Below are positions 942 to 64,000 of a DNA stretch of 64,000 nucleotides, piece after piece (the stretch's first letter is position 1; every line of letters begins with the position of its first letter). Location: assembly GCF_036785885.1 (NCBI RefSeq), contig NC_092330.1, positions 20,286,319 to 20,350,318 of the forward strand. The letters run 5' to 3'. The notes beneath the pieces are model-generated. The model did not search any database. It was not told the origin of the DNA and saw only the letters and a list, made by a program, of their open reading frames with translations. This DNA is from Coffea arabica. Lineage: Eukaryota > Streptophyta > Magnoliopsida > Gentianales > Rubiaceae. Both the position numbers and the translations under genes were made by a program.

Positions 942-1087
942 GGGTGCGATCATACCAGCACTAATGCACCGGATCCCATCAGAACTTCGAAGTTAAGCGT
1001 GCTTGGGCGACAGTAGTACTAGGATGGGTGACCCTAGGCCGGTCAACGGGTCGGGTCTACACCCGGATCCGGATCGGATCCCTGAAA

Positions 1088-1092
1088 TTTTT
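1088..1092 (+). terminator. Possible Pol III terminator inside the element (T5)
   Basis: In H elements a T5 run lies 147-151 nt downstream of the split gene's start. In D, D-i and D-e elements it is T6; in D2 it is broken to TTATTG. It would end any transcript begun at the split gene. Inference from known Pol III behaviour. Confidence 0.5.
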
Positions 1093-1138
1093 GCGGGTAT
1101 GGGTAGGGATTTAATTCCGTTATCCGGATCCGGATCCG

Positions 1139-1144
1139 TTTTTT
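1139..1144 (+). terminator. Possible Pol III terminator inside the element (T6)
   Basis: A T6 run conserved in all element subtypes, at nt 198-203 counted from the split gene's start. It is the first strong T-run met in D2 elements. Confidence 0.5.
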
Positions 1145-1155
1145 CAAACAAAAAA

Positions 1156-1190
1156 ACGGGTCGGATACGGAATATAGTATTCCGACCCGT
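1156..1190. repeat. Internal inverted repeat of the element
   Basis: ACGGGTCGGATACGGAATA is followed after TAG by TATTCCGACCCGT. Arms pair over ACGGGTCGGA and AATA with a short bulge. The ACGGGTCGG core also matches the terminal repeat region, as expected of subterminal repeats in hAT elements. Present in all copies, with minor changes at 58.4 and 59.9 kb. Confidence 0.7.
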
Positions 1191-1208
1191 ACTAGACCCG
1201 GATCCGGA

Positions 1209-1396
1209 TATAAATGATTTAATAATTTATAAAAAATATATATTATCAATATAATTTGATTAGGATGATGTATTTGAGTAAAATCAATTTGATTTATTTT
1301 CTTATTTGGTTTTTTCTTTGCATTAGCTAGAAATTAGTTTACAAATATATCTCTTTCTCTTTTTTGTTAGAAATTATAAATTTTGGCAAATTTGTT
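1209..1396. other. AT-rich core of the element
   Basis: About 190 bp of AT-rich sequence between two GC-rich, CCGGATCC-rich ends. No open frame resembling a transposase is present, so the element is non-autonomous. Subtype marks here: GCTAGAAATT and ATCTCTTTCTC in H; GTTAGAAATT and ATTTTTTTCTC in D and most D2. Confidence 0.8.
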
Positions 1397-1574
1397 CGGG
1401 TAGACCCGACCTGGATCCGAGACTCGCCGGGTCCGGATCCGGAACACCGAATAAAAGACCCGTCGGGTAAACGGGTCGGCTCCAGGTCCGGGTCCGGAAT
1501 AATGAATTCCGGCCCGGACCCGGCCCGTTGACACCCCTAGGTGACCCCCTGGGAAATCCTCGTGTTGCACCCCT

Positions 1575-3561: not shown

Positions 3562-3681
3562 GGGTGCGATCATACCAGCACTAATGCACCGGATCCCATC
3601 AGAACTCCGAAGTTAAGCGTGCTTGGGCGAGAGTAGTACTAGGATGGGTGACCCCCTGGGAAGTCCTCGTGTTGCACCCCT
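3562..3681 (+). rRNA. 5S rRNA: 5S rRNA gene, uninterrupted copy 2
   Basis: 120 nt, array consensus. Upstream block differs: TGTAAAAG in place of TTTAAAAG, and GCAAAAGG in place of GCGAAAGG. Shared with the copy at 11447. Confidence 0.97.
3611..3655 (+). promoter_or_regulatory. 5S internal control region, nt 50-94 (reference copy)
   Basis: The intragenic promoter bound by TFIIIA in eukaryotic 5S genes. A box AGTTAAGCGTGC is at nt 50-61, the intermediate element GCGAGAG at nt 66-72, and box C GGATGGGTGACC at nt 81-92. The transposon insertion point, after nt 93, falls directly behind box C, and the duplicated target keeps box C whole on the left side of the element. Confidence 0.8.
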
Positions 3682-5758: not shown

Positions 5759-6274
5759 TAGGCCGGTCAACGGGTCGGGTCTACACCCGGATCCGGATCG
5801 GATCCCTGAAATTTTTGCGGGTATGGGTAGGGATTTAATTCCGTTATCCGGATCCGGATCCGTTTTTTCAAACAAAAAAACGGGTCGGATACGGAATATA
5901 GTATTCCGACCCGTACTAGACCCGGATCCGGATATAAATGATTTAATAATTTATAAAAAATATATATTATCAATATAATTTGATTAGGATGATGTATTTG
6001 AGTAAAATCAATTTGATTTATTTTCTTATTTGGTTTTTTCTTTGCATTAGTTAGAAATTAGTTTACAAATATATTTTTTTCTCTTTTTTGTTAGAAATTA
6101 TAAATTTTGGCAAATTTGTTCGGGTAGACCCGACCCGGATCCGAGACTCGCCGGGTCCGGATCCAGAACACAGAATAAAAGACCCGTCGGGTAAACGGGT
6201 CGGATCCGGCTCCGGGTCCGGAATAATGAATTCCGGCCCGGACCCGGCCCGGACCCGGCCCGTTGACACCCCTA
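5759..6274 (+). mobile_element. hAT-like element copy 4, H/D chimera
   Basis: 516 bp with the 11-bp duplication. H marks to about 5916 (GTACTAGAC), D marks from 6051 (GTTAGAAATT) on. Confidence 0.9.
6240..6261. repeat. 11-bp tandem duplication in the element right end
   Basis: GGACCCGGCCC occurs twice in a row (6240-6250, 6251-6261). It makes elements of 516 bp instead of 505 bp. Also in the elements starting at 12070, 16806 and 18392. Confidence 0.9.
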
Positions 6275-11976: not shown

Positions 11977-12620
11977 GGGTGCGATCATACCAGCACTAAT
12001 GCACCGGATCCCATCAGAACTCCGAAGTTAAGCGTGCTTGGGCGACAGTAGTACTAGGATGGGTGACCCTAGGCCTGTCAACGGGTCCGGTCTAGACCCG
12101 GATCCGGATCGGATCGCTGAAATTTTTTCGGGTATGGGTAGGGATTTAATTCCGTTATCCGGATCCGGATCCGTTTTTTCAAACAAAAAAACGGGTCGGA
12201 TACGGAATATAGTATTCCGACCCGTATTAGACCCGGATCCGGATATAAATGATTTAATAATTTATAAAAAATATATATTATCAATATAATTTGATTAGGA
12301 TGATGTATTTGAGTAAAATCAATTTGATTTATTTTCTTATTTGGTTTTTTCTTTGCATTAGTTAGAAATTAGTTTACAAATATATTTTTTTCTCTTTTTT
12401 GTTAGAAATTATAAATTTTGGCAAATTTGTTCGGGTAGACCCGACCCGGATCCGAGACTCGCCGGGTCCGGATCCAGAACACAGAATAAAAGACCCGTCG
12501 GGTAAACGGGTCGGATCCGGCTCCGGGTCCGGAATAATGAATTCCGGCCCGGACCCGGCCCGGACCCGGCCCGTTGACACCCCTAGGTGACCCCCTGGGA
12601 AATCCTCGTGTTGCACCCCT
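11977..12620 (+). pseudogene. Split 5S gene, copy 8
   Basis: Left 11977-12069, right 12586-12620. Type D: G70C without C46T. Confidence 0.94.
12070..12585 (+). mobile_element. hAT-like element copy 8
   Basis: 516 bp, type D with the 11-bp duplication. Left end reads GGGTCCGGTC, not GGGTCGGGTC. Confidence 0.9.
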
Positions 12621-16712: not shown

Positions 16713-17356
16713 GGGTGCGATCATACCAGCACTAATGCACCGGATCCCATCAGAACTCCGAAGTTAAGCGTGCTTGGGCGACAGTAGTACTAGGATGGGT
16801 GACCCTAGGCCTGTCAACGGGTCGGGTCTAGACCCGGATCCGGATCGGATCGCTGAAATTTTTTCGGGTATGGGTAGGGATTTAATTCCGTTATCCGGAT
16901 CCGGATCCGTTTTTTCAAACAAAAAAACGGGTCGGATACGGAATATAGTATTCCGACCCGTATTAGACCCGGATCCGGATATAAATGATTTAATAATTTA
17001 TAAAAAATATATATTATCAATATAATTTGATTAGGATGATGTATTTGAGTAAAATCAATTTGATTTATTTTCTTATTTGGTTTTTTCTTTGCATTAGTTA
17101 GAAATTAGTTTACAAATATATTTTTTTCTCTTTTTTGTTAGAAATTATAAATTTTGGCAAATTTGTTCGGGTAGACCCGACCCGGATCCGAGACTCGCCG
17201 GGTCCGGATCCAGAACACAGAATAAAAGACCCGTCGGGTAAACGGGTCGGATCCGGCTCCGGGTCCGGAATAATGAATTCCGGCCCGGACCCGGCCCGGA
17301 CCCGGCCCGTTGACACCCCTAGGTGACCCCCTGGGAAATCCTCGTGTTGCACCCCT
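16713..17356 (+). pseudogene. Split 5S gene, copy 11
   Basis: Left 16713-16805, right 17322-17356. Type D. Confidence 0.94.
16806..17321 (+). mobile_element. hAT-like element copy 11
   Basis: 516 bp, type D with the 11-bp duplication. Confidence 0.9.
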
Positions 17357-18298: not shown

Positions 18299-18942
18299 GG
18301 GTGCGATCATACCAGCACTAATGCACCGGATCCCATCAGAACTTCGAAGTTAAGCGTGCTTGGGCGACAGTAGTACTAGGATGGGTGACCCTAGGCCGGT
18401 CAACGGGTCGGGTCTACACCCGGATCCGGATCGGATCCCTGAAATTTTTGCGGGTATGGGTAGGGATTTAATTCCGTTATCCGGATCCGGATCCGTTTTT
18501 TCAAACAAAAAAACGGGTCGGATACGGAATATAGTATTCCGACCCGTATTAGACCCGGATCCGGATATAAATGATTTAATAATTTATAAAAAATATATAT
18601 TATCAATATAATTTGATTAGGATGATGTATTTGAGTAAAATCAATTTGATTTATTTTCTTATTTGGTTTTTTCTTTGCATTAGCTAGAAATTAGTTTACA
18701 AATATATCTCTTTCTCTTTTTTGTTAGAAATTATAAATTTTGGCAAATTTGTTCGGGTAGACCCGACCCGGATCCGAGACTCGCCGGGTCCGGATCCGGA
18801 ACACCGAATAAAAGACCCGTCGGGTAAACGGGTCGGCTCCGGGTCCGGGTCCGGAATAATGAATTCCGGCCCGGACCCGGCCCGGACCCGGCCCGTTGAC
18901 ACCCCTAGGTGACCCCCTGGGAAATCCTCGTGTTGCACCCCT
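18299..18942 (+). pseudogene. Split 5S gene, copy 12
   Basis: Left 18299-18391, right 18908-18942. Type H left part. Confidence 0.94.
18392..18907 (+). mobile_element. hAT-like element copy 12, mosaic
   Basis: 516 bp. H left end, D-like GTATTAGAC, H core (GCTAGAAATT), then the 11-bp duplication. Confidence 0.9.
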
Positions 18943-25651: not shown

Positions 25652-25773
25652 GGGTGCGATCATACCAGCACTAATGCACCGGATCCCATCAGAACTCCGA
25701 AGTTAAGCGTGCTTGGGCGAGAGAGGTGTACTAGGATGGGTGACCCCCTAGGAAGTCCTCGTGTTGCACCCCT
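25652..25773 (+). rRNA. 5S rRNA: 5S rRNA gene, 122-nt variant, uninterrupted copy 16 (reference for variant)
   Basis: First copy of a variant in which GAGAGTAGTACTAGG (nt 68-82) reads GAGAGAGGTGTACTAGG: two extra bases and two substitutions just after the intermediate element. This moves the A box and box C two bases further apart and alters the region that folds as loop E and helix IV in 5S rRNA. It could impair TFIIIA binding or RNA folding, so the variant may be a pseudogene class; alternatively it may be a tolerated variant. This copy also reads CCTAGGAAG for CCTGGGAAG. Confidence 0.85.
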
Positions 25774-29331: not shown

Positions 29332-29964
29332 GGGTGCGATCATACCAGCACTAATGCACCGGATCCCATCAGAACTCCGAAGTTAAGCGTGCTTGGGCGA
29401 CAGTAGTACTAGGATGGGTGACCCTAGGCCTGTCAACGGGTCGGGTCTAGAACCGGATCCGGATCGGATCGCTGAAATTTTTTCGGGTATGGGTAGGGAT
29501 TTAATTCCGTTATCCGGATCCGGATCCGTTTTTTCAAACAAAAAAACGGGTCGGATACGGAATATAGTATTCCGACCCGTATTAGACCCGGATCCGGATA
29601 TAAATGATTTAATAATTTATAAAAAATATATATTATCAATATAATTTGATTAGGATGATGTATTTGAGTAAAATCAATTTGATTTATTTTCTTATTTGGT
29701 TTTTTCTTTGCATTAGTTAGAAATTAGTTTACAAATATATTTTTTTCTCTTTTTTGTTAGAAATTATAAATTTTGGCAAATTTGTTCGGGTAGACCCGAC
29801 CCGGATCCGAGACTCGCCGGGTCCGGATCCGGAACACAGAATAAAAGACCCGTCGGGTAAACGGGTCGGATCCGGGTCCGGGTCCGGAATAAAGAATTCC
29901 GGCCCGGACCCGGCCCGTTGACACCCCTAGGTGACCCCCTGGGAAATCCTCGTGTTGCACTCCT
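29332..29964 (+). pseudogene. Split 5S gene, copy 19
   Basis: Left 29332-29424, right 29930-29964. Type D-e, C117T. Confidence 0.94.
29425..29929 (+). mobile_element. hAT-like element copy 19
   Basis: 505 bp, D-e, with AAAGAATTCC near the right end. Confidence 0.9.
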
Positions 29965-35638: not shown

Positions 35639-36271
35639 GGGTGCGATCATACCAGCACTAATGCACCGGATCCCATCAGAACTTCGAAGTTAAGCGTGCT
35701 TGGGCGACAGTAGTACTAGGATGGGTGACCCTAGGCCGGTCAACGGGTCGGGTCTACACCCGGATCCGGATCGGATCCCTGAAATTTTTGCGGGTATGGG
35801 TAGGGATTTAATTCCGTTATCCGGATCCGGATCCGTTTTTTCAAACAAAAAAACGGGTCGGATACGGAATATAGTATTCCGACCCGTACTAGACCCGGAT
35901 CCGGATATAAATGATTTAATAATTTATAAAAAATTTATATTATCAATATAATTTGATTAGGATGATGTATTTGAGTAAAATCAATTTGATTTATTTTCTT
36001 ATTTGGTTTTTTCTTTGCATTAGCTAGAAATTAGTTTACAAATATATCTCTTTCTCTTTTTTGTTAGAAATTATAAATTTTGGCAAATTTGTTCGGGTAG
36101 ACCCGACCCGGATCCGAGACTCGCCGGGTCCGGATCCGGAACACCGAATAAAAGACCCGTCGGGTAAACGGGTCGGATCCGGGTCCGGGTCCGGAATAAT
36201 GAATTCCGGCCCGGACCCGGCCCGTTGACACCCCTAGGTGACCCCCTGGGAAATCCTCGTGTTGCACCCCT
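35639..36271 (+). pseudogene. Split 5S gene, copy 23
   Basis: Left 35639-35731, right 36237-36271. Type H island within the D region; followed by CCTTCC, not CCTCCC, after the gene. Confidence 0.94.
35732..36236 (+). mobile_element. hAT-like element copy 23
   Basis: 505 bp, type H with AAAAATTTATATT in the core. Confidence 0.9.
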
Positions 36272-36681
36272 TCCTTTTTTGTTTCGAAATCCAAATTTCC
36301 CCTTCGTTCTTTATGCTGTAGTAATTTAGCTCATTCGGAACGATTGCTTTATATTTTGCTTCTCATCGAAGCATGAAGGCGGATCTGAAGGCGCGAGACA
36401 AGTCAGGAACGGTACGGCTGGATCGAAGGCCGGATCGTCGGTCAAAGTTGTCGGCGCAAATGTATAAGCGCAAGCGTGAAGGATCAATTTCAGGATAATT
36501 GAGAGTTGCGCGACGAGGGAAAAAAAAGGTGCAAAGCAACAAGAAAAAAATATAAAAGTAAATAAATAAAAGGATGAGAGGAAATTCATGAATTGACGCT
36601 TAGAATGAATTCGGGTCCAGAAAAGCCAAACTGATTCACAGGACGTGGCAGTTTAAAAGAATAAAGCGAAAGGAACATGGC
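36272..36681 (+). other. Hybrid A/B spacer between two split genes
   Basis: The first part matches the class A copy at 44.7 kb (GCTCATTCGG, GAAGGCCGG, GTTGCGCGACG). From about 36528 on it is class B (AAGGTGCAAAGCAAC, ATATAAAAG, GAGAGGAAATTCATG). The switch lies between about 36509 and 36528. One uninterrupted gene is missing here. Confidence 0.85.
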
Positions 36682-42987: not shown

Positions 42988-43620
42988 GGGTGCGATCATA
43001 CCAGCACTAATGCACCGGATCCCATCAGAACTCCGAAGTTAAGCGTGCTTGGGCGACAGTAGTACTAGGATGGGTGACCCTAGGCCTGTCAACGGGTCGG
43101 GTCTAGAACCGGATCCGGATCGGATCGCTGAAATTTTTTCGGGTATGGGTAGGGATTTAATTCCGTTATCCGGATCCGGATCCGTTTTTTCAAACAAAAA
43201 AACGGGTCGGATACGGAATATAGTATTCCGACCCGTATTAGACCCGGATCCGGATATAAATGATTTAATAATTTATAAAAAATATATATTATCAATATAA
43301 TTTGATTAGGATGATGTATTTGAGTAAAATCAATTTGATTTATTTTCTTATTTGGTTTTTTCTTTGCATTAGTTAGAAATTAGTTTACAAATATATTTTT
43401 TTCTCTTTTTTGTTAGAAATTATAAATTTTGGCAAATTTGTTCGGGTAGACCCGACCCGGATCCGAGACACGCCGGGTCCGGATCCGGAACACCGAATAA
43501 AAGACCCGTCGGGTAAACGGGTCGGATCCGGGTCCGGGTCCGGAATAATGAATTCCGGCCCGGACCCGGCCCGTTGACACCCCTAGGTGACCCCATGGGA
43601 AATCCTCGTGTTGCACCCCT
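42988..43620 (+). pseudogene. Split 5S gene, copy 28
   Basis: Left 42988-43080, right 43586-43620. Type D-e with C95A in the right part (CCCCATGGG). Confidence 0.94.
43081..43585 (+). mobile_element. hAT-like element copy 28
   Basis: 505 bp, D-e, with GAGACACGCC. Confidence 0.9.
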
Positions 43621-44030
43621 CCCTTTTTTGTTTCGAAATCCAAATTTCCCCTTCGTTCTTTATGCTGTAGTAATTTAGCTCCGTCGGAACGATTGCTTTA
43701 TATTTTGCTTCTCATCGAAGCATGAAGGCGGATCTGAAGGCGCGAGACAAGTCAGGAACGGTACGGCTGGATCGAAGCCCGGATCGTCGGTCAAAGTTGT
43801 CGGCGCAAATGCATAAGCGCAAGCGTGAAGGATCAATTTCAGGATAATTGAGAGTTGTGCGACGAGGGAAAAAAAAGGTGCAAAGCAACAAGAAAAAAAT
43901 ATAAAAGTAAATAAATAAAAGGATGAGAGGAAATTCATGAATTGACGCTTAGAATGAATTCGGGTCCAGAAAAGCCAAACTGATTCACAGGACGTGGCAG
44001 TTTAAAAGAATAAAGCGAAAGGAACATGGC
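43621..44030 (+). other. Class B spacer directly after a split gene
   Basis: Carries class B marks including AATGCATAAGCG and AAGGTGCAAAGC although it follows a split gene. The exchange lies between the right remnant and about 43811. One uninterrupted gene is missing. Confidence 0.8.
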
Positions 44031-44663
44031 GGGTGCGATCATACCAGCACTAATGCACCGGATCCCATCAGAACTCCGAAGTTAAGCGTGCTTGGGCGAC
44101 AGTAGTACTAGGATAGGTGACCCTAGGCCTGTCAACGGGTCGGGTCTAGACCCGGATCCGGATCGGATCGCTGAAATTTTTTCGGGTATGGGTAGGGATT
44201 TAATTCCGTTATCCGGATCCGGATCCGTTTTTTCAAACAAAAAAACGGGTCGGATACGGAATATAGTATTCCGACCCGTACTAGACCCGGATCCGGATAT
44301 AAATGATTTAATAATTTATAAAAAATTTATATTATCAATATAATTTGATTAGGATGATGTATTTGAGTAAAATCAATTTGATTTATTTTCTTATTTGGTT
44401 TTTTCTTTGCATTAGCTAGAAATTAGTTTACAAATATATCTCTTTCTCTTTTTTGTTAGAAATTATAAATTTTGGCAAATTTGTTCGGGTAGACCCGACC
44501 CGGATCCGAGACTCGCCGGGTCCGGATCCGGAACACCGAATAAAAGACCCGTCGGGTAAACGGGTCGGATCCGGGTCCGGGTCCGGAATAATGAATTCCG
44601 GCCCGGACCCGGCCCGTTGACACCCCTAGGTGACCCCCTGGGAAATCCTCGTGTTGCACCCCT
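44031..44663 (+). pseudogene. Split 5S gene, copy 29
   Basis: Left 44031-44123 (D-i, G85A), right 44629-44663. Follows copy 28 directly. Confidence 0.94.
44124..44628 (+). mobile_element. hAT-like element copy 29, D/H chimera
   Basis: 505 bp. D marks to about 44182 (T6 run), H marks from 44281 on (GTACTAGAC, AAAAATTTATATT, GCTAGAAATT). Confidence 0.9.
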
Positions 44664-45075
44664 TCCTTTTTTGTTTCGAAATCCAAATTTCCCCTTCGTT
44701 CTTTATGCTGTAGTAATTTAGCTCATTCGGAACGATTGCTTTATATTTTGCTTCTCATCGAAGCATGAAGGCGGATCTGAAGGCGCGAGACAAGTCAGGA
44801 ACGGTACGGCTGGATCGAAGGCCGGATCGTTGGTCAAAGTTGTCGGCGCAAATGTATAAGCGCAAGCGTGAAGGATCAATTTCAGGATAATTGAGAGTTG
44901 CGCGACGAGGGAAAAAAAAATGGTGCAAATCAACAAGAAAAAAATGTAAAAGTAAATAAATAAAAGGATGAGGGGAAATTCTTGAATTGACGCTTAAAAT
45001 GAATTCGGGTCCAGAAAAGCCACACTGCTTCACAGGACGGGGCAGTTTAAAAGAATAAAACGAAAGGAACATGGC

Positions 45076-45195
45076 GGGTGCGATCATACCAGCACTAATG
45101 CACCGGATCCCATCAGAACTCCGAAGTTAAGCGTGCTTGGGCGAGAGTAGTACTAGGATGGGTGACCCCCTGGGAAGTCCTCGTGTTGCACCCCT
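45076..45195 (+). rRNA. 5S rRNA: 5S rRNA gene, uninterrupted copy 27
   Basis: Return to the 120-nt consensus. Upstream G at -16 is A (AAAACGAAAGG). Confidence 0.96.
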
Positions 45196-45606
45196 CCCTT
45201 TTTTGTTTCGAAATCCAAATTTCCCCTTCGTTCTTTATGCTGTAGTAATTTAGCTCCGTCGGAACGATTGCTTTATATTTTGCTTCTTATCGAAGCATGA
45301 AGGCGGATCTGAAGGCGCGAGACAAGTCAGGAACGGTACGGCTGGATCGAAGCCCGGATCGTCGGTCAAAGTTGTCGGCGCAAATGTATAAGCGCAAGCG
45401 TGAAGGATCAATTTCGGGATAACTGAGAGTTGTGCGACGAGGGAAAAAAAAAGGTGCAAATCAACAAGAAAAAAATATAAAAGTAAATAAATAAAAGGAT
45501 GAGAGGAAATTCATGAATTGACGCTTAGAATGAATTCGGGTCCAGAAAAGCCAAACTGCTTCACAGGGCGTGGCAGTTTAAAAGAATAAAACGAAAGGAA
45601 CATGGC

Positions 45607-46239
45607 GGGTGCGATCATACCAGCACTAATGCCCCGGATCCCATCAGAACTCTGAAGTTAAGCGTGCTTGGGCGACAGTAGTACTAGGATGGGTGACCCT
45701 AGGCCTGTCAACGGGTCGGGTCTAGACCCGGATCCGGATCGGATCGCTGAAATTATTGCGGGTATGGGTAGGGATTTAATTCCGTTACCCGGATCCGGAT
45801 CCGTTTTTTCAAACAAAAAAACGGGTCGGATACGGAATATAGTATTCCGACCCGTATTAGATCCGGATCCGGATATAAATGATTTAATAATTTATAAAAA
45901 ATATATATTATCAATATAATTTGATTAGGATGATGTATTTGAGTAAAATCAATTTGATTTATTTTCTTATTTGGTTTTTTCTTTGCATTAGTTAGAAATT
46001 AGTTTACAAATATATTTTTTTCTCTTTTTTGTTAGAAATTATAAATTTTGGCAAATTTGTTCGGGTAGACCCGACCCGGATCCGAGACTCGCCGGGTCCG
46101 GATCCGGAACACAGAATAAAAGACCCGTCGGGTAAACGGGTCGGATCCGGGTCCGGGTCCGGAATAAAGAATTCCGGCCCGGACCCGGCCCGTTGACACC
46201 CCTAGGTGACCCCCTGGGAAATCCTCGTGTTGCACTCCT
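45607..46239 (+). pseudogene. Split 5S gene, copy 30
   Basis: Left 45607-45699 with A27C and C47T, right 46205-46239 with C117T. Type D2. Confidence 0.94.
45700..46204 (+). mobile_element. hAT-like element copy 30
   Basis: 505 bp, D2, with AAAGAATTCC. Confidence 0.9.
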
Positions 46240-46651
46240 CCCTTTTTTGTTTCGAAATCCAAATTTCCCCTTCGTTCTTTATGCTGTAGTAATTTAGCTC
46301 CGTCGGAACGATTGCTTTATATTTTGCTTCTCATCGAAGCATGAAGGCGGATCTGAAGGCGCGAGACAAGTCAGGAACGGTACGGCTGGATCGAAGCCCG
46401 GATCGTCGGTCAAAGTTGTCGGCGCAAATGTATAAGCGCAAGCGTGAAGGATCAATTTCAGGATAATTGAGAGTTGCGCGACGAGGGAAAAAAAAATGGT
46501 GCAAATCAACAAGAAAAAAATGTAAAAGTAAATAAATAAAAGGATGAGGGGAAATTCTTGAATTGACGCTTAAAATGAATTCGGGTCCAGAAAAGCCACA
46601 CTGCTTCACAGGACGGGGCAGTTTAAAAGAATAAAGCGAAAGGAACATGGC

Positions 46652-46773
46652 GGGTGCGATCATACCAGCACTAATGCACCGGATCCCATCAGAACTCCGA
46701 AGTTAAGCGTGCTTGGGCGAGAGAGGTGTACTAGGATGGGTGACCCCCTGGGAAGTCCTCGTGTTGCACCCCT
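46652..46773 (+). rRNA. 5S rRNA: 5S rRNA gene, 122-nt variant, uninterrupted copy 28
   Basis: 122-nt form, otherwise consensus. Confidence 0.86.
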
Positions 46774-47183
46774 CCCTTTTTTGTTTCGAAATCCAAATTT
46801 CCCCTTCGTTCTTTATGCTGTAGTAATTTAGCTCCGTCGGAACGATTGCTTTATATTTTGCTTCTCATCGAAGCATGAAGGCGGATCTGAAGGCGCGAGA
46901 CAAGTCAGGAACGGTACGGCTGGATCGAAGCCCGGATCGTCGGTCAAAGTTGTCGGCGCAAATGCATAAGCGCAAGCGTGAAGGATCAATTTCAGGATAA
47001 TTGAGAGTTGTGCGACGAGGGAAAAAAAAGGTGCAAAGCAACAAGAAAAAAATATAAAAGTAAATAAATAAAAGGATGAGAGGAAATTCATGAATTGACG
47101 CTTAGAATGAATTCGGGTCCAGAAAAGCCAAACTGATTCACAGGACGTGGCAGTTTAAAAGAATAAAGCGAAAGGAACATGGC

Positions 47184-47816
47184 GGGTGCGATCATACCAG
47201 CACTAATGCACCGGATCCCATCAGAACTCCGAAGTTAAGCGTGCTTGGGCGACAGTAGTACTAGGATGGGTGACCCTAGGCCTGTCAACGGGTCGGGTCT
47301 AGAACCGGATCCGGATCGGATCGCTGAAATTTTTTCGGGTATGGGTAGGGATTTAATTCCGTTATCCGGATCCGGATCCGTTTTTTCAAACAAAAAAACG
47401 GGTCGGATACGGAATATAGTATTCCGACCCGTATTAGACCCGGATCCGGATATAAATGATTTAATAATTTATAAAAAATATATATTATCAATATAATTTG
47501 ATTAGGATGATGTATTTGAGTAAAATCAATTTGATTTATTTTCTTATTTGGTTTTTTCTTTGCATTAGTTAGAAATTAGTTTACAAATATATTTTTTTCT
47601 CTTTTTTGTTAGAAATTATAAATTTTGGCAAATTTGTTCGGGTAGACCCGACCCGGATCCGAGACACGCCGGGTCCGGATCCGGAACACCGAATAAAAGA
47701 CCCGTCGGGTAAACGGGTCGGATCCGGGTCCGGGTCCGGAATAATGAATTCCGGCCCGGACCCGGCCCGTTGACACCCCTAGGTGACCCCATGGGAAATC
47801 CTCGTGTTGCACCCCT
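47184..47816 (+). pseudogene. Split 5S gene, copy 31
   Basis: Left 47184-47276, right 47782-47816 with C95A. Type D-e; duplicate of copy 28. Confidence 0.94.
47277..47781 (+). mobile_element. hAT-like element copy 31
   Basis: 505 bp, D-e, with GAGACACGCC. Confidence 0.9.
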
Positions 47817-48226
47817 CCCTTTTTTGTTTCGAAATCCAAATTTCCCCTTCGTTCTTTATGCTGTAGTAATTTAGCTCCGTCGGAACGATTGCTTTATATT
47901 TTGCTTCTCATCGAAGCATGAAGGCGGATCTGAAGGCGCGAGACAAGTCAGGAACGGTACGGCTGGATCGAAGCCCGGATCGTCGGTCAAAGTTGTCGGC
48001 GCAAATGCATAAGCGCAAGCGTGAAGGATCAATTTCAGGATAATTGAGAGTTGTGCGACGAGGGAAAAAAAAGGTGCAAAGCAACAAGAAAAAAATATAA
48101 AAGTAAATAAATAAAAGGATGAGAGGAAATTCATGAATTGACGCTTAGAATGAATTCGGGTCCAGAAAAGCCAAACTGATTCACAGGACGTGGCAGTTTA
48201 AAAGAATAAAGCGAAAGGAACATGGC
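47817..48226 (+). other. Class B spacer directly after a split gene (duplicate of the one at 43.6 kb)
   Basis: Same structure and marks as the spacer 4196 bp upstream, so it arose by block duplication and not by a separate exchange. Confidence 0.8.
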
Positions 48227-48859
48227 GGGTGCGATCATACCAGCACTAATGCACCGGATCCCATCAGAACTCCGAAGTTAAGCGTGCTTGGGCGACAGTA
48301 GTACTAGGATAGGTGACCCTAGGCCTGTCAACGGGTCGGGTCTAGACCCGGATCCGGATCGGATCGCTGAAATTTTTTCGGGTATGGGTAGGGATTTAAT
48401 TCCGTTATCCGGATCCGGATCCGTTTTTTCAAACAAAAAAACGGGTCGGATACGGAATATAGTATTCCGACCCGTACTAGACCCGGATCCGGATATAAAT
48501 GATTTAATAATTTATAAAAAATTTATATTATCAATATAATTTGATTAGGATGATGTATTTGAGTAAAATCAATTTGATTTATTTTCTTATTTGGTTTTTT
48601 CTTTGCATTAGCTAGAAATTAGTTTACAAATATATCTCTTTCTCTTTTTTGTTAGAAATTATAAATTTTGGCAAATTTGTTCGGGTAGACCCGACCCGGA
48701 TCCGAGACTCGCCGGGTCCGGATCCGGAACACCGAATAAAAGACCCGTCGGGTAAACGGGTCGGATCCGGGTCCGGGTCCGGAATAATGAATTCCGGCCC
48801 GGACCCGGCCCGTTGACACCCCTAGGTGACCCCCTGGGAAATCCTCGTGTTGCACCCCT
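48227..48859 (+). pseudogene. Split 5S gene, copy 32
   Basis: Left 48227-48319 (G85A), right 48825-48859. Duplicate of copy 29. Confidence 0.94.
48320..48824 (+). mobile_element. hAT-like element copy 32, D/H chimera
   Basis: 505 bp, same mosaic as copy 29, 4196 bp away. Confidence 0.9.
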
Positions 48860-49271
48860 TCCTTTTTTGTTTCGAAATCCAAATTTCCCCTTCGTTCTTT
48901 ATGCTGTAGTAATTTAGCTCATTCGGAACGATTGCTTTATATTTTGCTTCTCATCGAAGCATGAAGGCGGATCTGAAGGCGCGAGACAAGTCAGGAACGG
49001 TACGGCTGGATCGAAGGCCGGATCGTTGGTCAAAGTTGTCGGCGCAAATGTATAAGCGCAAGCGTGAAGGATCAATTTCAGGATAATTGAGAGTTGCGCG
49101 ACGAGGGAAAAAAAAATGGTGCAAATCAACAAGAAAAAAATGTAAAAGTAAATAAATAAAAGGATGAGGGGAAATTCTTGAATTGACGCTTAAAATGAAT
49201 TCGGGTCCAGAAAAGCCACACTGCTTCACAGGACGGGGCAGTTTAAAAGAATAAAACGAAAGGAACATGGC

Positions 49272-49391
49272 GGGTGCGATCATACCAGCACTAATGCACC
49301 GGATCCCATCAGAACTCCGAAGTTAAGCGTGCTTGGGCGAGAGTAGTACTAGGATGGGTGACCCCCTGGGAAGTCCTCGTGTTGCACCCCT
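49272..49391 (+). rRNA. 5S rRNA: 5S rRNA gene, uninterrupted copy 29
   Basis: 120 nt, consensus; duplicate of copy 27 at a 4196-bp offset, with the same -16 change. Confidence 0.96.
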
Positions 49392-49802
49392 CCCTTTTTT
49401 GTTTCGAAATCCAAATTTCCCCTTCGTTCTTTATGCTGTAGTAATTTAGCTCCGTCGGAACGATTGCTTTATATTTTGCTTCTTATCGAAGCATGAAGGC
49501 GGATCTGAAGGCGCGAGACAAGTCAGGAACGGTACGGCTGGATCGAAGCCCGGATCGTCGGTCAAAGTTGTCGGCGCAAATGTATAAGCGCAAGCGTGAA
49601 GGATCAATTTCGGGATAACTGAGAGTTGTGCGACGAGGGAAAAAAAAAGGTGCAAATCAACAAGAAAAAAATATAAAAGTAAATAAATAAAAGGATGAGA
49701 GGAAATTCATGAATTGACGCTTAGAATGAATTCGGGTCCAGAAAAGCCAAACTGCTTCACAGGGCGTGGCAGTTTAAAAGAATAAAACGAAAGGAACATG
49801 GC

Positions 49803-50435
49803 GGGTGCGATCATACCAGCACTAATGCCCCGGATCCCATCAGAACTCTGAAGTTAAGCGTGCTTGGGCGACAGTAGTACTAGGATGGGTGACCCTAGGC
49901 CTGTCAACGGGTCGGGTCTAGACCCGGATCCGGATCGGATCGCTGAAATTATTGCGGGTATGGGTAGGGATTTAATTCCGTTACCCGGATCCGGATCCGT
50001 TTTTTCAAACAAAAAAACGGGTCGGATACGGAATATAGTATTCCGACCCGTATTAGATCCGGATCCGGATATAAATGATTTAATAATTTATAAAAAATAT
50101 ATATTATCAATATAATTTGATTAGGATGATGTATTTGAGTAAAATCAATTTGATTTATTTTCTTATTTGGTTTTTTCTTTGCATTAGTTAGAAATTAGTT
50201 TACAAATATATTTTTTTCTCTTTTTTGTTAGAAATTATAAATTTTGGCAAATTTGTTCGGGTAGACCCGACCCGGATCCGAGACTCGCCGGGTCCGGATC
50301 CGGAACACAGAATAAAAGACCCGTCGGGTAAACGGGTCGGATCCGGGTCCGGGTCCGGAATAAAGAATTCCGGCCCGGACCCGGCCCGTTGACACCCCTA
50401 GGTGACCCCCTGGGAAATCCTCGTGTTGCACTCCT
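49803..50435 (+). pseudogene. Split 5S gene, copy 33
   Basis: Left 49803-49895 with A27C and C47T, right 50401-50435. Type D2; duplicate of copy 30. Confidence 0.94.
49896..50400 (+). mobile_element. hAT-like element copy 33
   Basis: 505 bp, D2, with AAAGAATTCC. Confidence 0.9.
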
Positions 50436-50847
50436 CCCTTTTTTGTTTCGAAATCCAAATTTCCCCTTCGTTCTTTATGCTGTAGTAATTTAGCTCCGTC
50501 GGAACGATTGCTTTATATTTTGCTTCTCATCGAAGCATGAAGGCGGATCTGAAGGCGCGAGACAAGTCAGGAACGGTACGGCTGGATCGAAGCCCGGATC
50601 GTCGGTCAAAGTTGTCGGCGCAAATGTATAAGCGCAAGCGTGAAGGATCAATTTCAGGATAATTGAGAGTTGCGCGACGAGGGAAAAAAAAATGGTGCAA
50701 ATCAACAAGAAAAAAATGTAAAAGTAAATAAATAAAAGGATGAGGGGAAATTCTTGAATTGACGCTTAAAATGAATTCGGGTCCAGAAAAGCCACACTGC
50801 TTCACAGGACGGGGCAGTTTAAAAGAATAAAGCGAAAGGAACATGGC

Positions 50848-50969
50848 GGGTGCGATCATACCAGCACTAATGCACCGGATCCCATCAGAACTCCGAAGTT
50901 AAGCGTGCTTGGGCGAGAGAGGTGTACTAGGATGGGTGACCCCCTGGGAAGTCCTCGTGTTGCACCCCT
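50848..50969 (+). rRNA. 5S rRNA: 5S rRNA gene, 122-nt variant, uninterrupted copy 30
   Basis: 122-nt form; duplicate of copy 28. Confidence 0.86.
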
Positions 50970-51379
50970 CCCTTTTTTGTTTCGAAATCCAAATTTCCCC
51001 TTCGTTCTTTATGCTGTAGTAATTTAGCTCCGTCGGAACGATTGCTTTATATTTTGCTTCTCATCGAAGCATGAAGGCGGATCTGAAGGCGCGAGACAAG
51101 TCAGGAACGGTACGGCTGGATCGAAGCCCGGATCGTCGGTCAAAGTTGTCGGCGCAAATGCATAAGCGCAAGCGTGAAGGATCAATTTCAGGATAATTGA
51201 GAGTTGTGCGACGAGGGAAAAAAAAGGTGCAAAGCAACAAGAAAAAAATATAAAAGTAAATAAATAAAAGGATGAGAGGAAATTCATGAATTGACGCTTA
51301 GAATGAATTCGGGTCCAGAAAAGCCAAACTGATTCACAGGACGTGGCAGTTTAAAAGAATAAAGCGAAAGGAACATGGC

Positions 51380-56105: not shown

Positions 56106-56731
56106 GGGTGCGATCATACCAGCACTAATGCCCCGGATCCCATCAGAACTCTGAAGTTAAGCGTGCTTGGGCGACAGTAGTACTAGGATGGGTGACCCTA
56201 GGCCTGTCAACGGGTCGGGTCTAGACCCGGATCCGGATCGGATCGCTGAAATTATTGCGGGTATGGGTAGGGATTTAATTCCGTTACCCGGATCCGGATC
56301 CGTTTTTTCAAACAAAAAAACGGGTCGGATACGGAATATAGTATTCCGACCCGTATTAGATCCGGATCCGGATATAAATGATTTAATAATTTAAAAAATA
56401 TATATATTATCAATATAATTTGATTAGGATGATGTATTTGAGTAAAATCAATTTGATTTATTTTCTTATTTGGTTTTTTCTTTGCATTAGTTAGAAATTA
56501 GTTTACAAATATATCTTTTTCTCTTTTTTGTCAGAAATTATAAATTTTGGCAAATTTGTTCGGGTAGACCCGACCCGGATCCGAGACTCGCCGGGTCCGG
56601 ATCCGGAACACAGAATAAAAGGCCCGTCGGGTAAACGGGTCGGATCCGGGTCCGGAATAATGAATTCCGGCCCGGACCCGGCCCGCTGACACCCTAGGTG
56701 ACCCCCTGGGAACTCCTCGTGTTGCACCCCT
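56106..56731 (+). pseudogene. Split 5S gene, copy 37
   Basis: Left 56106-56198 with A27C and C47T, right 56697-56731. Type D2; nt 102 is C (GGGAACTCC), not the A of other split genes. Confidence 0.94.
56199..56696 (+). mobile_element. hAT-like element copy 37
   Basis: 498 bp, D2. One GGGTCC repeat and one C of the right end are lost (CGCTGACACCCTA). Confidence 0.9.
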
Positions 56732-57142
56732 CCCTTTTTTGTTTCGAAATCCAAATTTCCCCTTCGTTCTTTATGCTGTAGTAACTTAGCTCCGTCGGAA
56801 CGATTGCTTTATATTTTGCTTCTCATCGAAGCATGAAGGCGGATCTGAAGGCGCGAGACAAGTCAGGAACGGTACGGCTGGATCGAAGCCCGGATCGTCG
56901 GTCAAAGTTGTCGGCGCAAATGTATAAGCGCAAGCGTGAAGGATCAATTTCAGGATAATTGAGAGTTGTGCGACGAGGGAAAAAAAAAGGTGCAAATCAA
57001 CAAGAAAAAAATATAAAAGTAAATAAATAAAAGGATGAGAGGAAATTCATGAATTGACGCTTAGAATGAATTCGGGTCCTGAAAAGCCAAACTGCTTCAC
57101 AGGACGTGGCAGTTTAAAAGAATAAAGCGAAAGGAATATGGC
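56732..57142 (+). other. Class B spacer between two split genes
   Basis: Class B with subtype marks GTAACTTAGC, AAGGTGCAAATCAAC and GGGTCCTGAAAAG. No uninterrupted gene lies between the split genes that flank it. Confidence 0.8.
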
Positions 57143-57768
57143 GGGTGCGATCATACCAGCACTAATGCACCGGATCCCATCAGAACTCCGAAGTTAAGCG
57201 TGCTTGGGCGACAGTAGTACTAGGATGGGTGACCCTAGGCCTGTCAACGGGTCGGGTCTAGACCCGGATCCGGATCGGATCGCTGAAATTATTGCGGGTA
57301 TGGGTAGGGATTTAATTCCGTTACCCGGATCCGGATCCGTTTTTTCAAACAAAAAAACGGGTCGGATACGGAATATAGTATTCCGACCCGTATTAGATCC
57401 GGATCCGGATATAAATGATTTAATAATTTAAAAAATATATATATTATCAATATAATTTGATTAGGATGATGTATTTGAGTAAAATCAATTTGATTTATTT
57501 TCTTATTTGGTTTTTTCTTTGCATTAGTTAGAAATTAGTTTACAAATATATCTTTTTCTCTTTTTTGTCAGAAATTATAAATTTTGGCAAATTTGTTCGG
57601 GTAGACCCGACCCGGATCCGAGACTCGCCGGGTCCGGATCCGGAACACAGAATAAAAGGCCCGTCGGGTAAACGGGTCGGATCCGGGTCCGGAATAATGA
57701 ATTCCGGCCCGGACCCGGCCCGCTGACACCCTAGGTGACCCCCTGGGAACTCCTCGTGTTGCACCCCT
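57143..57768 (+). pseudogene. Split 5S gene, copy 38
   Basis: Left 57143-57235 without A27C or C47T, right 57734-57768 with C102. Type D2. Confidence 0.94.
57236..57733 (+). mobile_element. hAT-like element copy 38
   Basis: 498 bp, D2, same marks as copy 37. Confidence 0.9.
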
Positions 57769-58179
57769 CCCTTTTTTGTTTCGAAATCCAAATTTCCCCT
57801 TCGTTCTTTATGCTGTAGTAACTTAGCTCCGTCGGAACGATTGCTTTATATTTTGCTTCTCATCGAAGCATGAAGGCGGATCTGAAGGCGCGAGACAAGT
57901 CAGGAACGGTACGGCTGGATCGAAGCCCGGATCGTCGGTCAAAGTTGTCGGCGCAAATGTATAAGCGCAAGCGTGAAGGATCAATTTCAGGATAATTGAG
58001 AGTTGTGCGACGAGGGAAAAAAAAAGGTGCAAATCAACAAGAAAAAAATATAAAAGTAAATAAATAAAAGGATGAGAGGAAATTCATGAATTGACGCTTA
58101 GAATGAATTCGGGTCCTGAAAAGCCAAACTGCTTCACAGGACGTGGCAGTTTAAAAGAATAAAGCGAAAGGAATATGGC
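57769..58179 (+). other. Class B spacer between two split genes (tandem duplicate)
   Basis: Carries the same private marks as the spacer 1037 bp upstream (GTAACTTAGC, GGGTCCTGAAAAG, GGAATATGGC before the gene). Confidence 0.8.
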
Positions 58180-63928: not shown

Positions 63929-64000
63929 GGGTGCGATCATACCAGCACTAATGCACCGGATCCCATCAGAACTCCGAAGTTAAGCGTGCTTGGGCGAGAG
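63929..64000 (+). rRNA. 5S rRNA: 5S rRNA gene, copy 37, cut by window end
   Basis: First 72 nt only. The G70 (GAGAG) marks it as an uninterrupted-type gene, since split genes have C70. The window stops before the position that separates 120- and 122-nt forms. Confidence 0.88.

Follow-up and report, generated by a model that had tools for sequence, protein, structure and literature searches.

A 5S rRNA gene array of Coffea arabica in which uninterrupted genes alternate with genes split by a hAT-like MITE

Organization of the array

The window, that is, the whole 64,000-nt stretch of Coffea arabica DNA analyzed here, is an uninterrupted head-to-tail tandem array of 5S rRNA genes from end to end, and the array extends past both window ends. 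An Rfam search of the whole window gave 79 5S matches, all on the + strand. Parsed from gene start to gene start, the window divides into 78 complete units: the gene is uninterrupted in 36 (I units, 529 to 532 bp) and split by an inserted element in 42 (S units, 1,033 to 1,056 bp). The 79th gene starts at 63929 and is cut after 72 nt by the window end, with the insertion site outside the window; at nt 70 it has G, as the I genes do. The opposite edge holds part of one more element.

1 to 495, + strand: 43rd element, right part only, left end cut by the window edge

The window thus contains 43 split genes, of which 42 have a complete element and one is cut at the edge. The original prediction had 43 copies fixed at one base; the common site stands throughout, while the number of complete copies is 42. 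It had also put the transposon share at about one third of the window and the broken genes at more than half, and both estimates agree with our counts: element bases amount to 21,706 (33.9%), and split copies outnumber unbroken ones in this window. Any exact copy number for the array is unsafe.

The uninterrupted genes fall into two length classes. The 120-nt class comprises 21 of the 36 genes, 19 of them identical and two with one substitution each. The 122-nt class comprises the other 15, all with an identical 5′ part; AGGT stands in place of TA between the IE and the C box, in a stretch that the Rfam alignment assigns to loop E.

3562 to 3681, + strand: near-canonical 120-nt 5S gene, one of 19 identical copies
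25652 to 25773, + strand: first of the 15 122-nt genes; the starts of the remaining 14 range from 27224 to 62353, and the class spans 25652 to 62884 of the window

If the 122-nt genes are also impaired, near-canonical genes make up 21 of the 78 complete genes.

The inserted element

One split gene is made up as follows.

942 to 1574, + strand: split 5S gene; 5′ part 942 to 1034 (nt 1 to 93), element, second duplication copy, 3′ part 1548 to 1574 (nt 94 to 120)
1027 to 1034, + strand: left 8-bp duplication copy GGTGACCC, equal to 5S nt 86 to 93
1035 to 1539, + strand: element best called a hAT-like MITE, 505 bp, with 23-nt inverted ends, one of 42 complete copies
1540 to 1547, + strand: right 8-bp duplication copy GGTGACCC

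The insertion point follows nt 93 of the 120-nt gene in every S unit, and the target duplication (nt 86 to 93) is exact on both flanks in all 42 complete copies, as had been predicted. Removal of the element together with one target copy was expected to restore a 120-nt gene, and the two gene parts do add up to 93 + 27 = 120 nt, the length of the larger class of uninterrupted genes. The element runs from TAGGCC.GTCAACGGG on the left to TAGGGGTGTCAACGGG on the right, in accordance with the inverted ends first read, with T at the seventh base in 26 and G in 16 of the 42 copies; one C is missing from the right end in two of them. As measured on the copy at 29425 to 29929, the inverted ends are 23 nt long and match at 87%, and a strand of this copy folds back far more stably than its shuffles (z −9.97). 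Most elements are 505 bp long (33/42), the others being 516 (four), 498 (two), 493 (two), and 500 bp (one). The A+T content is 59%, and the longest of the five listed open reading frames that overlap the first element copy encodes 83 amino acids. The 42 complete copies comprise 22 distinct sequences, which diverge by 1.9% on average and by 5.1% at most. At the plant LTR rate of 1.3e-8 quoted in PMC5688495, these values correspond to about 0.7 and 2 million years, respectively, which are loose ages because exchange between copies breaks the clock.

Along the window the array forms two blocks, 1 to 25651 with 120-nt genes and mostly G-variant elements, and 25652 to 64000 with 122-nt genes and mostly T-variant elements. 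The length of 516 bp, seen in four of the 42 elements, results from a tandem duplication of 11 bp (CCGGCCCGGAC) close to the right end.

6233 to 6262, 12544 to 12573, 17280 to 17309, and 18866 to 18895: 11-bp duplication sites

The units that carry it have different 5′ gene parts, so the duplication marks exchange between lineages.

The element is best called a hAT-like MITE, a name that its 8-bp duplication and its ends alone supply. By structure it is a MITE, being short (493 to 516 bp), non-coding, and bounded by inverted ends with a stable foldback, and its 43 copies here all occupy one site. Ends of hAT type start with TAG or CAG. An assignment to hAT is suggested by the 8-bp duplication, the TAGGGGTG end, and the short inverted ends, the 42 instances of the duplication counting as one observation since all derive from one insertion. 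The 8-bp criterion has likewise been used to assign hAT MITEs in Brassica nigra (PMC7385995). Kinship with the hATm elements, described with the ends TAGGGTG/CACCCTA (PMC6004678), is only a lead suggested by the terminal bases.

Searches with the element and with its right end gave no relative in the collections covered. The right-end 16-mer TAGGGGTGTCAACGGG occurs in nine viral and 13 prokaryote contig stretches, with element-like flanks in 0 of 22, and the left-end 16-mer occurs in 29 stretches in viral contigs. Seven of the viral contigs (L001, L002, and L004 to L008) share a conserved stretch around the right-end 16-mer that is unrelated to the element. A BLAST comparison of one element with 51 loci yielded a single match, 20 bases in L027 with E = 6.6e-4, which we take as chance. 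A plant 5S 43-mer had no match in the viral contigs, and the dimer described below had none in the plasmid collection. The 12-base right end has its sole occurrence among the open-licence papers covered in one on base editing. Rfam matches to snoZ247 and AaHKsRNA41 inside the element score far below the gathering thresholds and are likewise taken as chance. We also considered a 5S-carrying element of the Cassandra type, whose mobile unit includes the 5S promoter, and do not see that layout here: the target duplication falls within the 5S gene, and between its two copies there is no Rfam 5S match of the element's own beyond the flanking gene part.

A single insertion event

Two positions within the gene itself separate the split from the uninterrupted copies. 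At nt 70 all 42 split genes have C and all 36 uninterrupted genes have G; at nt 102 the split genes have A (40) or C (two), and the uninterrupted genes have G in 36 of 36. The S and I spacers also differ in the majority base at ten alignment columns. Since the differences at nt 70 and nt 102 are borne by the gene and set S apart from I genes, a single insertion event, later amplified with the array, is supported. The same conclusion had been drawn originally from the shared site and orientation, and the two markers common to the split genes add to it.

Elements that are site specific for rDNA, such as those of the R2 or Pokey kind, make repeated targeting of one base conceivable, and the occurrence of all 43 copies at the same base in the same orientation is what an element with a preference for nt 93 of 5S genes would produce. 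Repeated hits on I-type genes, however, would yield neither the complete separation of split and uninterrupted genes at nt 70 and nt 102 nor the ten differing spacer columns. We therefore regard independent insertions as highly improbable, the markers pointing to one event.

A dimer as the amplified unit

The S and I units follow one another in near-perfect alternation. The 77 adjacencies comprise 36 SI, 36 IS, five SS, and no II, that is, 72 mixed pairs and five like-type neighbors; 20,000 shuffles gave 38.2 like-type neighbors on average and never fewer than 20. Runs of several units are repeated exactly, the largest being a block of five units.

942 to 2516, + strand: S-I dimer, 1,575 bp (split unit 942 to 1986, uninterrupted unit 1987 to 2516), the unit of amplification
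42988 to 51379, + strand: five-unit block S-S-I-S-I, 4,196 bp, exactly duplicated (42988 to 47183 and 47184 to 51379)

The divergence between S units tracks that between their I partners. Across the 36 S-I pairs (six S units with no I unit following were left out) the partial Mantel r is 0.26 with the linear distance trend removed, a value reached in eight of 5,000 permutations; for the right block, with 20 of the 36 pairs, r is 0.57 uncorrected for distance, and none of 5,000 permutations was as high. The amplified unit is thus a dimer of one I and one S gene of about 1,575 bp. Neither this dimer nor the 122-nt gene class was part of the original prediction. Its spread by unequal exchange is shown in outline by the alternation, the exact block repeats, and the correlated divergence of partners. 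The mixed adjacencies and the block repeats together give the dimer of a functional-looking and a broken 5S gene that is known from Gnetum. An rRNA array that spreads a disrupted gene to this degree had been called unusual; that description has to be tempered, since nearly every adjacency pairs an S with an I unit and an alternation of functional 5S genes with pseudogenes has already been published for Gnetum (PMC6526317).

Recombination traces at S-S junctions

At each of the five SS junctions the spacer is of I type. It follows from the spacer type that the SS pairs arose when an S unit and the next I unit recombined in their 3′ sides, an exchange by which one I gene was deleted. In one case the switch itself can be located.

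35639 to 36681, + strand: S unit before another S; the change from S-type to I-type spacer falls between columns 237 and 257 of the alignment, a recombination junction

Two of the five cases belong to the repeated 4,196-bp block, and two are alike in element, 3′ part, and spacer. The independent events that formed SS pairs may accordingly number only about three, and for this reason the complete lack of II pairs says little. A further pattern is seen at 56106 to 58179: two adjoining S units agree fully in element, 3′ gene part, and spacer but differ in their 5′ gene parts, and a third S unit follows them, which suggests a recent exchange close to the insertion point.

Misassembly is common in tandem arrays, and this one runs off both window ends, so that one may ask if separate intact and split arrays, or collapsed copies, have been wrongly interleaved. 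Such an error would hardly generate 22 distinct elements among 42, correlated divergence of neighboring partners, or five SS junctions with one coherent signature, one of them with an internal S-to-I switch. The dimer of about 1.6 kb should, moreover, lie far under the length of long reads. An assembly artefact is in our judgment quite improbable as the source of the alternation.

Fate of the split genes

The variability of the split genes is close to that of the element. Variable sites number 11/120 in the S genes and 44/505 in the element (p = 0.86), compared with 3/120 in the I genes (S vs I genes, p = 0.050), where all 42 S genes were counted and the I count excluded the stretch in which the 122-nt genes differ. 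The comparison of I genes with I spacers (23/410) is not significant (p = 0.23). That of S genes with S spacers (20/412) gives p = 0.08 in the Fisher test with 37 of the 42 spacers, the five of I type having been removed; including them raises the number of variable sites from 20 to 33 of the 412. These values fit a lack of constraint on the S genes. The excess of S genes over S spacers is not required by plain neutrality.

The position of the insertion nevertheless leaves room for activity. We take the boxes of the 5S internal promoter to lie at nt 50 to 64 (A box), 67 to 72 (IE), and 80 to 90 (C box), and on these coordinates an insertion after nt 93 falls beyond all three. Chimeric Pol III transcripts of the split genes are plausible, the internal promoter region being kept. 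Pol III could read from it into the element, and the 5S-MITE RNAs of about 150 to 200 nt might be turned into small RNAs that help to silence or dose the array. TTTAAAA is present at −30 of 42/42 S genes and of 34/36 I genes; five or more T in a row occur at nt 147 in 34 of the 42 S units, and six T occur at nt 198 in every one of them, the latter behind a hairpin in the one copy to which a bacterial-type scan was applied. Arabidopsis offers a parallel in a 210-nt 5S run-on RNA, reported to be silenced via the Pol IV siRNA pathway (PMC2691480). Against this, the change at nt 70 in all split genes and a further one at nt 85 in nine of 42 fall inside the promoter boxes as we place them, the S genes are as variable as the element, and the folding of the 150-nt RNA is no more stable than that of shuffled versions (z −0.96; the 120-nt and 122-nt genes give −1.39 and −1.07). 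The element has a CpG observed/expected ratio of 1.74 and no clear excess of methylation-type decay, with C-to-T type changes at 5/74 CG, 4/57 CHG, and 4/77 CHH sites; silencing of the split units gets no support from it. Active split genes with such a role are on balance unlikely. If they did exist, a 5S head on a foreign body would be a layout from which 5S-headed retroelements could arise.

We favor, with a probability of roughly 80%, one hAT-like insertion followed by spread of the S-I dimer through unequal exchange, with the split genes hitchhiking as pseudogenes and I genes occasionally deleted. In this account a non-autonomous hAT-like element inserted once in one 5S gene, just downstream of the internal promoter, and unequal exchange then carried the split gene and its uninterrupted neighbor as a dimer through the array. 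The split genes are probably pseudogenes that hitchhike in this higher-order repeat. Selection on 5S supply would act on the pair, the gain or loss of a dimer also altering the number of uninterrupted genes; since each added dimer adds an uninterrupted gene, selection should hardly oppose the broken member provided that enough 5S is supplied in total. Recombination between the 3′ sides of S and I units occasionally removes I genes and leaves S-S pairs. If the 122-nt genes are impaired, the hitchhiking argument weakens where they occur, as many dimers then add no good gene.

5S arrays are a standard case of homogenization, which is expected to purge broken genes. The coffee array contains a physically marked broken gene that can be traced copy by copy next to its uninterrupted partner, and it allows a direct reading of the size and register of exchanges, of the deletion of intact genes, and of the tolerance for loss of functional copies. 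The rule it suggests is that a broken gene may escape purging when it is locked with a working gene in a higher-order repeat.

Comparison with known systems

Among the matches listed from the open-licence literature, no title or abstract opening reports a 5S gene that was split by a transposon and multiplied together with the array around it, which is no proof of absence. Many 5S pseudogenes are cited for Thinopyrum, wheat, and Solanaceae (PMC11070557), and pseudogenized 5S arrays are reported for Hydnora (PMC12222929). Higher-order 5S arrays have been seen on long molecules in pikes, the sections of that report available to us describing no dimer of a broken and an intact gene (PMC5437419).

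Transposons inside 5S arrays are known from wheat chromosome 5B (PMC5688495) and maize Mo17 (PMC10335936). On wheat 5B one LTR element (Fatima) sits in 5S coding sequence, the other insertions being in spacers (PMC5688495). Unlike the present case, those in wheat and maize are described as separate insertions, and the portions of the two papers at hand describe no insert amplified with the array (PMC5688495, PMC10335936). With respect to the element itself, BniHAT-1 and BniHAT-2 of Brassica nigra are similarly short (673 and 666 bp), with inverted ends (25 and 12 bp) and an 8-bp duplication; they are, however, dispersed, with hundreds of intact copies (434 for BniHAT-1) and an A+T content of 70% to 75%, whereas the known coffee elements are copies of one insertion with 59% (PMC7385995). 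Cassandra retrotransposons also join a mobile element to the 5S internal promoter, but their LTRs carry that promoter, whereas the present element merely sits in a genomic 5S gene (PMC10853983).

The closest counterpart is found in Gnetum montanum and Ephedra altissima, where functional and pseudogene 5S copies share one unit, the pseudogenes being of comparable or higher number, and their amplification is ascribed to concerted evolution (PMC6526317). Their broken copies are shortened, diverged pseudogenes for which the relevant part of the account names no transposon, while here the cause is a precise insertion (PMC6526317). The Gnetum alternation is backed by Southern blots, with the long-range order left open and called uncertain by its authors, whereas in the present assembly the order is contiguous over 64 kb (PMC6526317). 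The alternation of functional and pseudogene 5S copies was thus already known from Gnetum, as far as that account goes (PMC6526317); what is new here is the transposon as the cause and a record of the process at the level of single bases.
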